From Paenibacillus swuensis (GTDB taxonomy: Bacteria; Bacillota; Bacilli; Paenibacillales; DY6), in NCBI RefSeq assembly GCF_001644605.1, contig NZ_CP011388.1, forward strand, positions 4,445,501-4,509,500: a DNA stretch of 64,000 nt, read 5' to 3'. The notes beneath the pieces are model-generated. The model worked only from the letters and a program-made list of their open reading frames with translations, was not told the origin of the DNA and did no database searches. Shown in pieces: positions 10,778-49,107 of the stretch. Every line of letters starts with the position of its first letter. Within the stretch, counting starts at the first letter, position 1. Made by a program: the position numbers and the translations under genes.

Positions 10778-10829
10778 AAAAGGGCAGCCCCCGCGTCAAG
10801 AAATACTTGACGCGGGGGCTGCCCTTTTT
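10778..10829. terminator. Strong bidirectional terminator
   Basis: A 19-bp perfect GC-rich stem (10782-10800 with 10806-10824; core GGGCAGCCCCCGCGTCAAG) has a five-base loop, an A-run before and five T after. It terminates the small lipoprotein gene on the plus strand and the ktrB gene on the minus strand. Confidence 0.95.
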
Positions 10830-10842
10830 GATAAATTCAAGT

Positions 10843-12180
10843 TTAGCCTATAACGATATCGCCGGTGGGGTGACGATAGAGTTGCTTTCCTTTTCCCGGA
10901 CTTAAAGCGAAGGCTAACGTAATCAGCCCGACCCTCCCGGTAAACATCAACAGAATAATAATAGCTTCGCCTGCGGGAACAAGTTCACGAGTCAAGCCCA
11001 TACTCAAGCCGACAGTGCCGAATGCTGAAGTTGCCTCAAACAGGACCATCAGAAAAGGCTGGGGCTGCAGGGTTAATAAAATTAAGGTTGAGCCAAGTAG
11101 TACGATCATTCCGATAAACGCAAGCGTCAGCGCTCTGTAGATGTCATCGGACGGGATGCGTCTGCGGAACAGGACAACCGATTCCTTTCCTCGAAGCGTA
11201 GACCATAAGGCTGCTGTCAGTAACGTAAATGTGGTTACTTTAATACCGCCTCCGGTAGAACCCGGGGCCGATCCGATAAACATCAGGATCACCATCAGGA
11301 ATAACGTCGCGCTTCGCATCGCTCCGACATCCACCGTGTTGATTCCCGCTGAACGCAAGCTAATGGAATGAAAGAACGAAGCCATGATTTGATGACCTGC
11401 ATGCATAGGACCAAGCGTTAAAGGATTGGTGCGCTCGAACACAAAGATCAGAAGCGCCCCTAGCAGGGTGAGCACCGAGATGGCCGTGAGCACCACTTTG
11501 CTATGTAGTGACAGTTTGCGGGTCCTGGGGTATTCCATAACGTCCGATATGACAATGAATCCCATCCCTCCAAGCAATACCAATACCATCGCGGCGATGT
11601 TCATTCCCGAATCATTCACATAGAGTGTTAAGCCTCTGAAATCCCCGAATAACTCAAAGCCCCCGTTATTGAAGATCGAGACTGCATGAAAAACACCGAA
11701 ATAGATGGCTTTGGCCAACGGCATCTCATCCATCCATCGAAACGCGAAATACAGAGCGGCGACAGACTCAATGGTGATGGAATATAAGAATACTTTACCA
11801 ATCAGTCTGACGATTCCCTCAATCGTATTCTGATTCATCGTTTCTTTGAGGATCAAACGTTCCCTGAACGAAATGCGCCGCTTCATCATCAATGTAAACC
11901 ATGTGGCCACCGTCATGAACCCCAATCCGCCGAGTTGCAACATGAATAAGATAACGATTTGACCAAATATGGAGAAGTATGTACCTGTATCCACAACGAC
12001 CAAGCCGGTAACGCACGTCGCGGATGTAGCTGTGAACAATGCATCCAACAAAGGCAAACGTTCACCGCTTTGGGATGCTGCGGGTAACGAGAGCAGCAAG
12101 GTGCCGATCATAATAATGACAGCAAAACCTGCGGCCAGTACCCGCGGGGGAGACCAATGATTTCTTAAATTTGAAAGCAC
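10843..12180 (-). CDS. Potassium uptake protein KtrB/KtrD (TrkH family)
   Basis: A 445-residue K+-translocating membrane subunit of a Ktr system, the same length as B. subtilis KtrB. Four M1-P-M2 repeats carry filter motifs: TSATCVTGL, FNNGGFEL, SLRSAGINT and SAFGTVGLS. A gating-loop region, SAPGSTGGGIKVTTF, follows the third filter. It needs a cytosolic KtrA/KtrC RCK subunit, which is not in the window. The GTG at 12180 is chosen because GAGGAGGT lies eight bases upstream; an in-frame TTG 63 bases earlier has no ribosome binding site and would add an atypical tail. The start region is covered by a 40-bp dyad (separate entry). Expected regulation by c-di-AMP acts mainly on the RCK partner. 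Confidence 0.92.
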   Translation of the reverse strand: MLSNLRNHWSPPRVLAAGFAVIIMIGTLLLSLPAASQSGERLPLLDALFTATSATCVTGLVVVDTGTYFSIFGQIVILFMLQLGGLGFMTVATWFTLMMKRRISFRERLILKETMNQNTIEGIVRLIGKVFLYSITIESVAALYFAFRWMDEMPLAKAIYFGVFHAVSIFNNGGFELFGDFRGLTLYVNDSGMNIAAMVLVLLGGMGFIVISDVMEYPRTRKLSLHSKVVLTAISVLTLLGALLIFVFERTNPLTLGPMHAGHQIMASFFHSISLRSAGINTVDVGAMRSATLFLMVILMFIGSAPGSTGGGIKVTTFTLLTAALWSTLRGKESVVLFRRRIPSDDIYRALTLAFIGMIVLLGSTLILLTLQPQPFLMVLFEATSAFGTVGLSMGLTRELVPAGEAIIILLMFTGRVGLITLAFALSPGKGKQLYRHPTGDIVIG

Positions 12181-12218
12181 AATGGGAGACCTCCTCTCTT
12201 GAGGATATCTCCCATTGT
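12179..12218 (-). promoter_or_regulatory. 40-bp interrupted palindrome over the ktrB promoter, ribosome binding site and start codon
   Basis: ACAATGGGAGA (12179-12189) and TCTCCCATTGT (12208-12218) form an 11-bp inverted repeat, and inside it TCCTC (12192-12196) pairs with GAGGA (12201-12205); 16 of 20 symmetric positions match. On the minus strand the dyad holds a plausible -10 TACAAT (12214-12219; -35 TTGTTA at 12238-12243, 18-base spacer), the GAGGAGG ribosome binding site and the first bases of the GTG start. It is either a repressor operator or, if transcription starts further upstream, an mRNA hairpin that hides the translation start. Confidence 0.65.
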
Positions 12219-12276
12219 ACAACTTGTATATGAACTTTAACAAATGTTGAAACCATGAATACGGTTTAAGGAACCG

Positions 12277-12465
12277 TTATCTTTGCTTAGCCCTGTCCGA
12301 CACAACCCATTGTACTACTGCTACAACCGCTGTATCTACGACAGTTGCCAGCAATGCAAGGGTAAACCAATCGTTATTCTCCAATGTGTAGTACAGAATG
12401 CCGTGGAATGCGAATAAGAGAACGAATAACCATAGCAGATTTACATTTCGGATCCAGTTAAGCAT
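12277..12465 (-). CDS. Small two-helix membrane protein
   Basis: A 62-residue protein, MLNWIRNVNLLWLFVLLFAF at the start, with two hydrophobic segments (about residues 9-27 and 33-54) separated by a short acidic loop (ENND) and ending in a basic tail (SDRAKQR). It has a good AAAGGTGG ribosome binding site eight bases before the ATG, so it is very likely a real gene. It lies between a YitT-family gene and the ktrB promoter on the same strand. No family is recognised; a small accessory membrane peptide is possible but unsupported. Confidence 0.65.
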   Translation of the reverse strand: MLNWIRNVNLLWLFVLLFAFHGILYYTLENNDWFTLALLATVVDTAVVAVVQWVVSDRAKQR

Positions 12466-12555: not shown

Positions 12556-13392
12556 TTATCCGTTGGGGAAACCATTGCCAATCACTTCCTTCACATCGCT
12601 GAACGTTACGAATGCCAAAGGATCTTCCCGAGTAACCAGTTTCTTAAGACGGATTGTCTCCTTCCGACTAACAATACAATATATAACCTCTCTTTGTTTG
12701 CCCGAATATCCGCCCTTACCTTCCAGATAAGTAATACCGCGGCTCATTTCATTCATAATGGCCGAAGCCGTTTCTTGTGGGCGGTTCGTTATAATAAAGG
12801 CGGCTTTCGCTCCGTTGCTACCCTCCAGCATAAAATCGATAACACGCGCCCCTACCAGCAGTGCTACTAACGTGTACATCGTCCGGTTCAGGTCCAGGAA
12901 GAGTAAGGAGAAGAGTAGGATGATAAAGTCCAGCATAAAGATCGTGCGGGCAATACTCCAGCCATAGTGCTTCTGCATTAATTTGGCGATGATATCCGTG
13001 CCCTCCGTCATGCCTTCAAAGCGAAACACGATACCAAAGCCCAATCCGACAACGCCCCCGGCATACAGGGAAGCAAGAAGGGAATCTTCCAACGGTAACG
13101 CGAACTCCGCGAACAGCCACAGAAACAGAGAGACGGATAACATTCCTGTAATTGTATAAATCAAGCTTGTTTTACCCAACATCTTCCAGCCAATGAAAAG
13201 AAGCGGAATGTTCATAAGTAAACTGGTCCACGCCGGGCTCCAGCCCGTCACATATTTAAGAAGCAGAGAGACGCCCGCAATGCCGCCTTCCGCCAAGCCG
13301 TTCGCAATATTAAAGTAGTTCATGCCGAAACTGAGTATGGCAGAGCCTACGATAATACCAGCGATGTTACTCCATTTGAAAGAATTGTTCAC
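12556..13392 (-). CDS. YitT family protein with C-terminal DUF2179 domain
   Basis: A 278-residue integral membrane protein of unknown function. The N-terminal YitT_membrane part (about residues 10-205) has five or six hydrophobic segments with Gly-rich motifs (GLAEGGIAGVSLLLKYVTGW at about 31-50, GVVGLGFGIVFRFEGMTEGTD at about 113-133). The soluble DUF2179 domain (about 213-268) contains AFIITNRPQE and YLEGKGGYSG, typical of full-length YitT proteins. It starts with GTG behind AAGGAGA. A lone small membrane protein gene follows it. B. subtilis has several such paralogues with unclear roles. Confidence 0.9.
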   Translation of the reverse strand: MNNSFKWSNIAGIIVGSAILSFGMNYFNIANGLAEGGIAGVSLLLKYVTGWSPAWTSLLMNIPLLFIGWKMLGKTSLIYTITGMLSVSLFLWLFAEFALPLEDSLLASLYAGGVVGLGFGIVFRFEGMTEGTDIIAKLMQKHYGWSIARTIFMLDFIILLFSLLFLDLNRTMYTLVALLVGARVIDFMLEGSNGAKAAFIITNRPQETASAIMNEMSRGITYLEGKGGYSGKQREVIYCIVSRKETIRLKKLVTREDPLAFVTFSDVKEVIGNGFPNG

Positions 13393-16573: not shown

Positions 16574-18094
16574 ATGAATGAAAAGCAAGGTTCATCCCAA
16601 GGTCAGACACCGCAAACCGATAATTACACTCTTACGAATCGTCAAGGCCATCCCATTACGGATAATCAGAATGTAAGGACAGTCGGACGCCGAGGCCCCA
16701 CAACTTTGGAAAACTACCACTTTATTGAGAAAATCACACATTTTGACCGGGAACGTATTCCTGAACGTGTGGTGCATGCGCGAGGCGCGGGTGCTCACGG
16801 TGTGTTTGAGGCTTACGGTACGGCGGGTGATGATCCGGTGTCGAAGTTTACCCGAGCGAAGTTATTTCAACAGGCCGGCAAACAAACACCGGTTTTCGTT
16901 CGCTTCTCCACGGTTGTCCATGGCGGTCATTCCCCGGAAACGTTGCGCGATCCGCGCGGCTTTGCGGTTAAATTCTATACCGAAGATGGGAACTGGGATC
17001 TTGTCGGTAACAATCTGAAGATTTTCTTTATTCGGGACCCGCTTAAATTCCCCGATATGGTACACGCGTTCAAACCGGATCCGATTACGAACACGCAAAG
17101 TATGGAACGTTTCTTCGATTTCGTCTCTTTAACGCCGGAGGCGACTCACATGGTCACTTTCTTGTTTTCTCCGTGGGGTATTCCGGCCAATTATCGGCAA
17201 ATGCAGGGCTCTGGCGTGAATACATATAAGTGGGTCAATAGCGAAGGGGCCGGATTCCTGGTGAAATACCATTGGGAGCCGCTCAAACAAGGATTGCTGA
17301 ATCTCCTTCAGAAGGATGCTGAAACCATTCAATCCACAGAGTTCAATCATGCAACCGTTGACCTGTACCAAGCCATCGAGAACGGTGACTATCCGGAGTG
17401 GGAGCTCTGCGTGCAGATCTTGAGCGATGACGAGCATCCGGAACTGGATTTCGACCCGTTGGATCCTACGAAGCTGTGGCCTGAGGAGCAAATTCCTTTT
17501 CTGCCGGTAGGCAAAATGACCCTTAACCGCAACCCCGAAGATTACTTCACCGAGGTGGAGCAGGCAGCCTTCGGGACTGGCGTTCTGGTGGACGGTCTCG
17601 ACTTCTCCGACGACAAGCTGCTGCAAGGCCGCACGTTCAGCTACTCGGATACGCAGCGCCATCGTGTCGGGGCTAACTACCTCCAACTGCCTATCAACGC
17701 CCCTCGCGCACGGGTAGCGACCAATCAGAGCGGCGGCCAGATGCAATATCGGGTAGATCGGGCCCCGGGCCAGAATCCGCATGTGAACTATGAGCCTTCC
17801 TCTTTGGGCGGGCTTGAAGAAGCGCCTAAACCGGGCAAGGACCACGAGCCGCACGTTGATGCCCGTTTAGTTCGGGAGAAGATTGAGCGAACGAATGATT
17901 TCGGTCAGGCCGGTGATACGTACCGCAACTTCGCTGATTGGGAACGCGATGAACTCATCTCCAACCTTGCGGGAGCGTTACGCACCTGCCAAACGGATAT
18001 ACAGGAGCGGATGATCGGTTATTTTACCAAAGCGGATCCAGAGTACGGTCAGCGGGTGAAGGAAGCCATTTATGGTTCCGGTGAACTGAAATAG
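16574..18094 (+). CDS. katA: Haem catalase, monofunctional
   Basis: A 506-residue cytosolic haem enzyme that disproportionates hydrogen peroxide. The catalytic residues are visible: distal His68 in [12 protein letters not shown], distal Asn146 in GNWDLVGNN, and the proximal haem ligand Tyr357 in [14 protein letters not shown]. Length fits small-subunit catalases. The start follows AAAGGAAAGG, and a perfect terminator follows the stop. A cre-like site lies just upstream; no PerR box was identified with confidence. Confidence 0.97.
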
Positions 18095-46755: not shown

Positions 46756-46799
46756 TGTATTACTGATATAATTTAATACTATTTTGTATCAGTGATACA
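46756..46799 (-). promoter_or_regulatory. Operator pair of the GntR/LacI-type regulator at the isomerase operon promoter
   Basis: GTATCAGTGATAC (46786-46798) is a perfect palindrome with one central base. A near-copy, GTATTACTGATAT, is at 46757-46769, so the centres are 29 bases apart. On the minus strand the first lies in the 17-base spacer between TTGCAT and TAGTAT, and the second lies just past that -10. A third related site, GTATTAGTAAAAC, is found in the regulator's own promoter (48133-48145). This pattern is what a dimeric repressor with two operators would give. Confidence 0.65.
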
Positions 46800-49066: not shown

Positions 49067-49107
49067 AAAAGAAAATCTCCCGCGCAAATGGTCGGGAGAT
49101 TTTCTTT
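49067..49107. terminator. Bidirectional terminator
   Basis: AAAGAAAATCTCCCG (49068-49082) and CGGGAGATTTTCTTT (49093-49107) form a 15-bp perfect stem, AT-rich at its base. It serves the AraC gene on the plus strand and the esterase-like gene on the minus strand. Confidence 0.9.

Follow-up and report, generated by a model that had tools for sequence, protein, structure and literature searches.

The start region of a ktrB-type potassium uptake gene of Paenibacillus swuensis carries a long inverted repeat which, in the mRNA sense, is predicted to fold into a very stable hairpin over the Shine-Dalgarno (SD) sequence and the start codon. A candidate promoter overlaps the DNA encoding the 5' arm of the hairpin. 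The reading that we tentatively favor, and which we hold to be possible rather than probable, is that this is a ribosome-site hairpin that silences read-through transcripts and has the promoter of the gene built into its 5' arm. The features are listed in Table 1, numbered along the window, i.e., the whole 64-kb stretch of DNA that was analysed.

Table 1. Features at the ktrB locus, with window coordinates and the basis of each assignment
Feature	Position	Strand	Basis
Strong terminator after ktrB, 23-bp stem	10778..10828	-	Terminator scan
K+ uptake gene, ktrB/trkH family, 445 aa	10843..12180	-	PF02386 and TIGR00933 profiles
GTG start codon	12178..12180	-	SD spacing; N-terminus matches ortholog start region
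Dyad; 19-pair hairpin in the mRNA sense, predicted to hide SD and start	12179..12218	-	Symmetry and predicted fold
SD GAGGAGGUC, core AGGAGG, in 3' arm	12188..12196	-	Sequence and predicted structure
Anti-SD UCCUC, inner 5' arm, predicted to pair with GAGGA of the SD	12201..12205	-	Predicted structure
Outer 5' arm GUACAAUGGGAGAU, overlapping the -10 box	12207..12220	-	Predicted structure; promoter scan
Promoter-like site TTGTTA-18-TACAAT, predicted start ~12207	12214..12243	-	9/12 consensus matches
62-aa ORF upstream of ktrB, same direction	12277..12465	-	Relatives in 14 other genomes of the order
Membrane protein gene, further upstream in the same direction	12556..13392	-	Weak NCBIfam matches only

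The gene product scored above the cut-offs of both family profiles, PF02386 (E 9e-50, 170 bits, cut-off 27) and TIGR00933 (E 5.6e-99, 331.9 bits, barely above the cut-off of 331.15), and by these matches it is a TrkH/KtrB transporter, in agreement with the preliminary description, which had called the gene KtrB-type. The only strong TrkA_N/KtrA match in the genome adjoins a ktrB paralog (L002, G000:C1:1716 kb), so the gene studied here is of the stand-alone KtrB/KtrD type, like ktrD of Bacillus subtilis. Its AGGAGG is a strong SD, 9 nt upstream of the GTG, and the N-terminus read from that codon fits the orthologs, which mostly start about 10 to 20 codons before a conserved PPR(V/I)L motif. 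No second in-frame start of ktrB with an SD was seen. A longer KtrB beginning at TTG 12243 was rejected, as this codon is without an SD and lies beyond most ortholog starts.

The dyad 40-mer, ACAATGGGAGACCTCCTCTCTTGAGGATATCTCCCATTGT, matches at 16 of its 20 symmetric positions. From the outside in, there are 11 perfect outer pairs, 2 mismatches and 5 inner pairs, and 2 more mismatched positions at the center leave a 4-nt loop. Given the base composition, 0.024 ungapped 40-mers with at least 16 of 20 matches are expected per 64 kb, and the earlier claim that the symmetry is real and beyond chance thus stands. The score is exceeded at one other place in the window, 49068-49107, where AAAGAAAATCTCCCGCGCAAATGGTCGGGAGATTTTCTTT reaches 17/20, the highest symmetry in the window; this dyad is probably a terminator. 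Scores of 15/20 occur at 18092, 18444, 30552 and 46758, the last being an A/T-rich dyad (46758-46797, TATTACTGATATAATTTAATACTATTTTGTATCAGTGATA) that does not look like a terminator. Further copies of the ktrB dyad are absent from the P. swuensis genome, even with 3 mismatches allowed. Among 392 genomes of the order, places within 3 mismatches occur in 7 other genomes, compared with 2 for a reversed control pattern; these places are dissimilar, and the inner SD pairs are present in none of the 7. A hairpin pattern with GGAGG-TCTCCCA gave 16 scattered matches in unrelated taxa among 85,000 genomes, which is about the chance level, and the plasmid records searched held nothing relevant.

In the predicted mRNA fold, the stem comprises 14 + 5 pairs, with G-C and G-U pairs extending the pairing over the GTG. 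An 81-nt segment folds at -32.7 kcal/mol, compared to -12.9 (sd 2.7) for shuffled sequences (z -7.4), and none of the 200 shuffles is as stable. The stem is stronger in the mRNA sense than in the antisense (-32.2 versus -26.6 kcal/mol) because two of the departures from symmetry become G-U pairs only in the mRNA, a difference that leans weakly toward a role in the mRNA. By these calculations, a long transcript would have its SD and start region paired in a stable stem. The dyad is not among the matches of the intrinsic terminator scan and has no U run, its tail being GUGCUUUCAAA. An attenuator or terminator reading was rejected, since no U run follows the stem, and an RNA thermometer reading was rejected because the stem is too stable.

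To place the hairpin among the start sites of the genome, we took the cost of opening the SD plus start for 1177 SD-led, non-overlapping called ORFs from 2.06 Mb (41% of the genome), sampled in stretches that include the window. With 26.1 kcal/mol (mean 6.35, sd 3.07, 99.5th percentile 16.9), ktrB ranks 1 of 1177, a rank that is indicative, as the ORF caller is crude; the two next-ranked sites resemble terminators that precede wrongly assigned TTG starts. Another inverted repeat at a start lies at ~356.7 kb of G000:C1 (L058:16711-16790), in a gene that by eye encodes an NlpC/P60-like secreted protein; here, 11-bp arms (AACTGAACATG and CATGTTCAGTT) cover the ATG with the SD between them, and the opening cost is 16.6 kcal/mol.

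The candidate -10 box (12219-12214) overlaps the 5' arm of the dyad, and promoter matches of this quality (9/12) arise 4.7 times per 2.8 kb of shuffled sequence. The preliminary description had the dyad overlapping a plausible -10, the SD and the GTG, which is borne out, the GTG being only partly within the 40-mer because the start codon runs from 12180 to 12178 on the minus strand, and being covered by the extended stem. It had also distinguished transcripts that start upstream and would hide the SD from those that start at about 12207, and the predicted folds bear out both cases, the second with a shortened stem. Opening the segment from SD to GTG is calculated to cost 26 kcal/mol for 5' ends at 12220 or upstream of it, and 11 kcal/mol for 5' ends at 12208-12206, where the fold is predicted to lose its outer stem and to keep the 5-bp UCCUC/GAGGA hairpin. 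Upstream, the 62-aa ORF is a real gene by virtue of its relatives, and the membrane protein gene beyond it is one that we take to be YitT-like. The scan found no minus-strand terminator between this gene and the dyad.

These elements may work together as follows. Read-through mRNA from the upstream same-strand genes would carry the whole dyad and fold into the very stable stem, hiding the SD and GTG so that little KtrB is made. The promoter with its -10 box in the 5' arm would start a transcript at about 12207, without most of the outer arm; keeping just the 5-bp SD hairpin, this RNA would be translated, though damped rather than free, because the remaining hairpin still pairs the SD. KtrB output would then track its own promoter rather than upstream transcription. 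Promoter use, read-through and the translational block are the inferred parts of this scheme. The RNA hairpin and the operator had been put forward as alternatives; the anatomy fits a third, known type of arrangement that unites the two, with the promoter lying in the 5' arm of a hairpin that silences read-through.

Silencing of read-through is the favored reading because the layout matches arrangements described for B. subtilis sigG (spoIIIG) and phage T4 gene e (lysozyme). For sigG, a hairpin of 20 or more bp has been proposed to keep read-through transcripts from being translated, whereas the PsigG transcript, which has a GTG start, cannot form the large hairpin and keeps a 5-bp, -6.2 kcal/mol hairpin at the ribosome-binding site (RBS) that lowers translation 2-4 fold (PMC5942855). 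The predicted ktrB structures share the large RBS hairpin, which would form only in read-through mRNA, the residual 5-bp hairpin and the GTG start. They differ in that sigG has a sigma-F/G sporulation promoter, is another gene behind another upstream operon, and has a small hairpin reported to be common in spore-forming Bacilli. In T4, long early transcripts of gene e hide the RBS, with an effect of ~100-fold, and the RBS is free in mRNA from late promoters, which lie in the DNA that specifies the 5' strand (PMC3014915). The ktrB locus would likewise have upstream transcripts folding over the RBS and a promoter within the 5' strand DNA; the phage gene differs in its late promoters and in that its effect was measured. 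If the reading is correct, a housekeeping K+ transporter uses the insulation device of a sporulation sigma factor and a phage lysis gene, which would suggest that promoters built into RBS hairpins shield genes from read-through more widely, and the ktrB dyad would make a clean natural reporter system for such insulation.

The sigG gene of P. swuensis itself (L164:1420-1500) has a hairpin of -18.9 kcal/mol over its SD, in the layout proposed for read-through control in B. subtilis. Its opening cost of 10.8 is not exceptional, and the sigma-factor gene upstream of it is probably sigE.

No other member of the genus or family of P. swuensis is among the genomes compared. The 29 nearest ktrB orthologs (L004-L032), at 58-64% identity, all lack the dyad that the preliminary description had proposed to seek before the ktrB genes of relatives; they have ordinary SDs, e.g., GAGGTG, and no SD-hiding stem of this type is found among the most stable 50-nt folds near their starts. 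None of the neighbors tested is shared within 1.5 kb, the 62-aa gene does not adjoin ktrB in any of the 9 relatives read, and related loci sought by protein in GTDB contigs yielded none confirmed. The absence from these orthologs and the unconserved neighborhood count against the favored reading and give no sign of selection on the dyad.

This distribution, a single genome among those compared and no evidence of conservation, is what one would expect of an accident, i.e., a recent chance inverted duplication or a neutral palindrome that has little effect as most mRNA starts inside it. We nevertheless consider an accident somewhat unlikely, as 0.02 such dyads are expected per window, this one falls exactly on the SD and start, and the census shows such stems to be rare at starts in P. 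swuensis. The strong symmetry of the DNA, with perfect 11-bp arms flanking the predicted transcription start, would also suit an operator, on which a dimeric or tetrameric repressor would bind two arms 29 bp apart (center to center) over the -10 box and start of ktrB. This appears unlikely: the genome has no second site within 3 mismatches, and hence no regulon or self-site, no regulator gene adjoins ktrB, and a repressor would explain neither the inner pairing of SD with anti-SD nor the G-U pairs that exist only in the mRNA.

It is also unlikely that the whole stem is present in every transcript and is opened by a protein, small RNA or ligand for KtrB translation, e.g., under K+ stress. The SD is indeed fully paired in the full-length predicted fold, and a stem so stable would need an opener if all transcripts carried it, but it matches no Rfam family, a plain stem closed by a 4-nt loop leaves little room for an aptamer and has no sensor, its stability is too high for a thermometer, no SD-bearing leader ORF was seen by eye, and the 29 orthologs read are without it. 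Most improbable is the broader proposal that a new regulator or ligand actively switches the stem, as RNA or as DNA, and so adjusts KtrB synthesis to K+ or to the osmotic state independently of c-di-AMP. Nothing was found that links the dyad to K+, c-di-AMP or any ligand, and the initial suggestion of a role in controlling K+ uptake is left without support.

The same description had noted that the known c-di-AMP riboswitch is missing at ktrB, and the Rfam covariance model (RF00379) indeed has no match in the 64-kb window. The ydaO riboswitch of this family controls the potassium-uptake genes ktrAB and kimA in Bacillus; the ktrB dyad, unlike it, contains neither an aptamer nor a terminator. That ktrB lacks the riboswitch is ordinary, as in B. 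subtilis reports of it are confined to ktrAB and kimA, and ktrD is constitutive (PMC5573677). The P. swuensis genome has 8 c-di-AMP riboswitches, none of them at this ktrB or at the paralog, and one precedes ktrB at 4 of the ortholog loci. Three of the P. swuensis matches lie within 1.1 kb (G000:C1:2793094-2794216; L033, L036 and L037), a plus-strand tandem pair and a third, divergent one on the minus strand.
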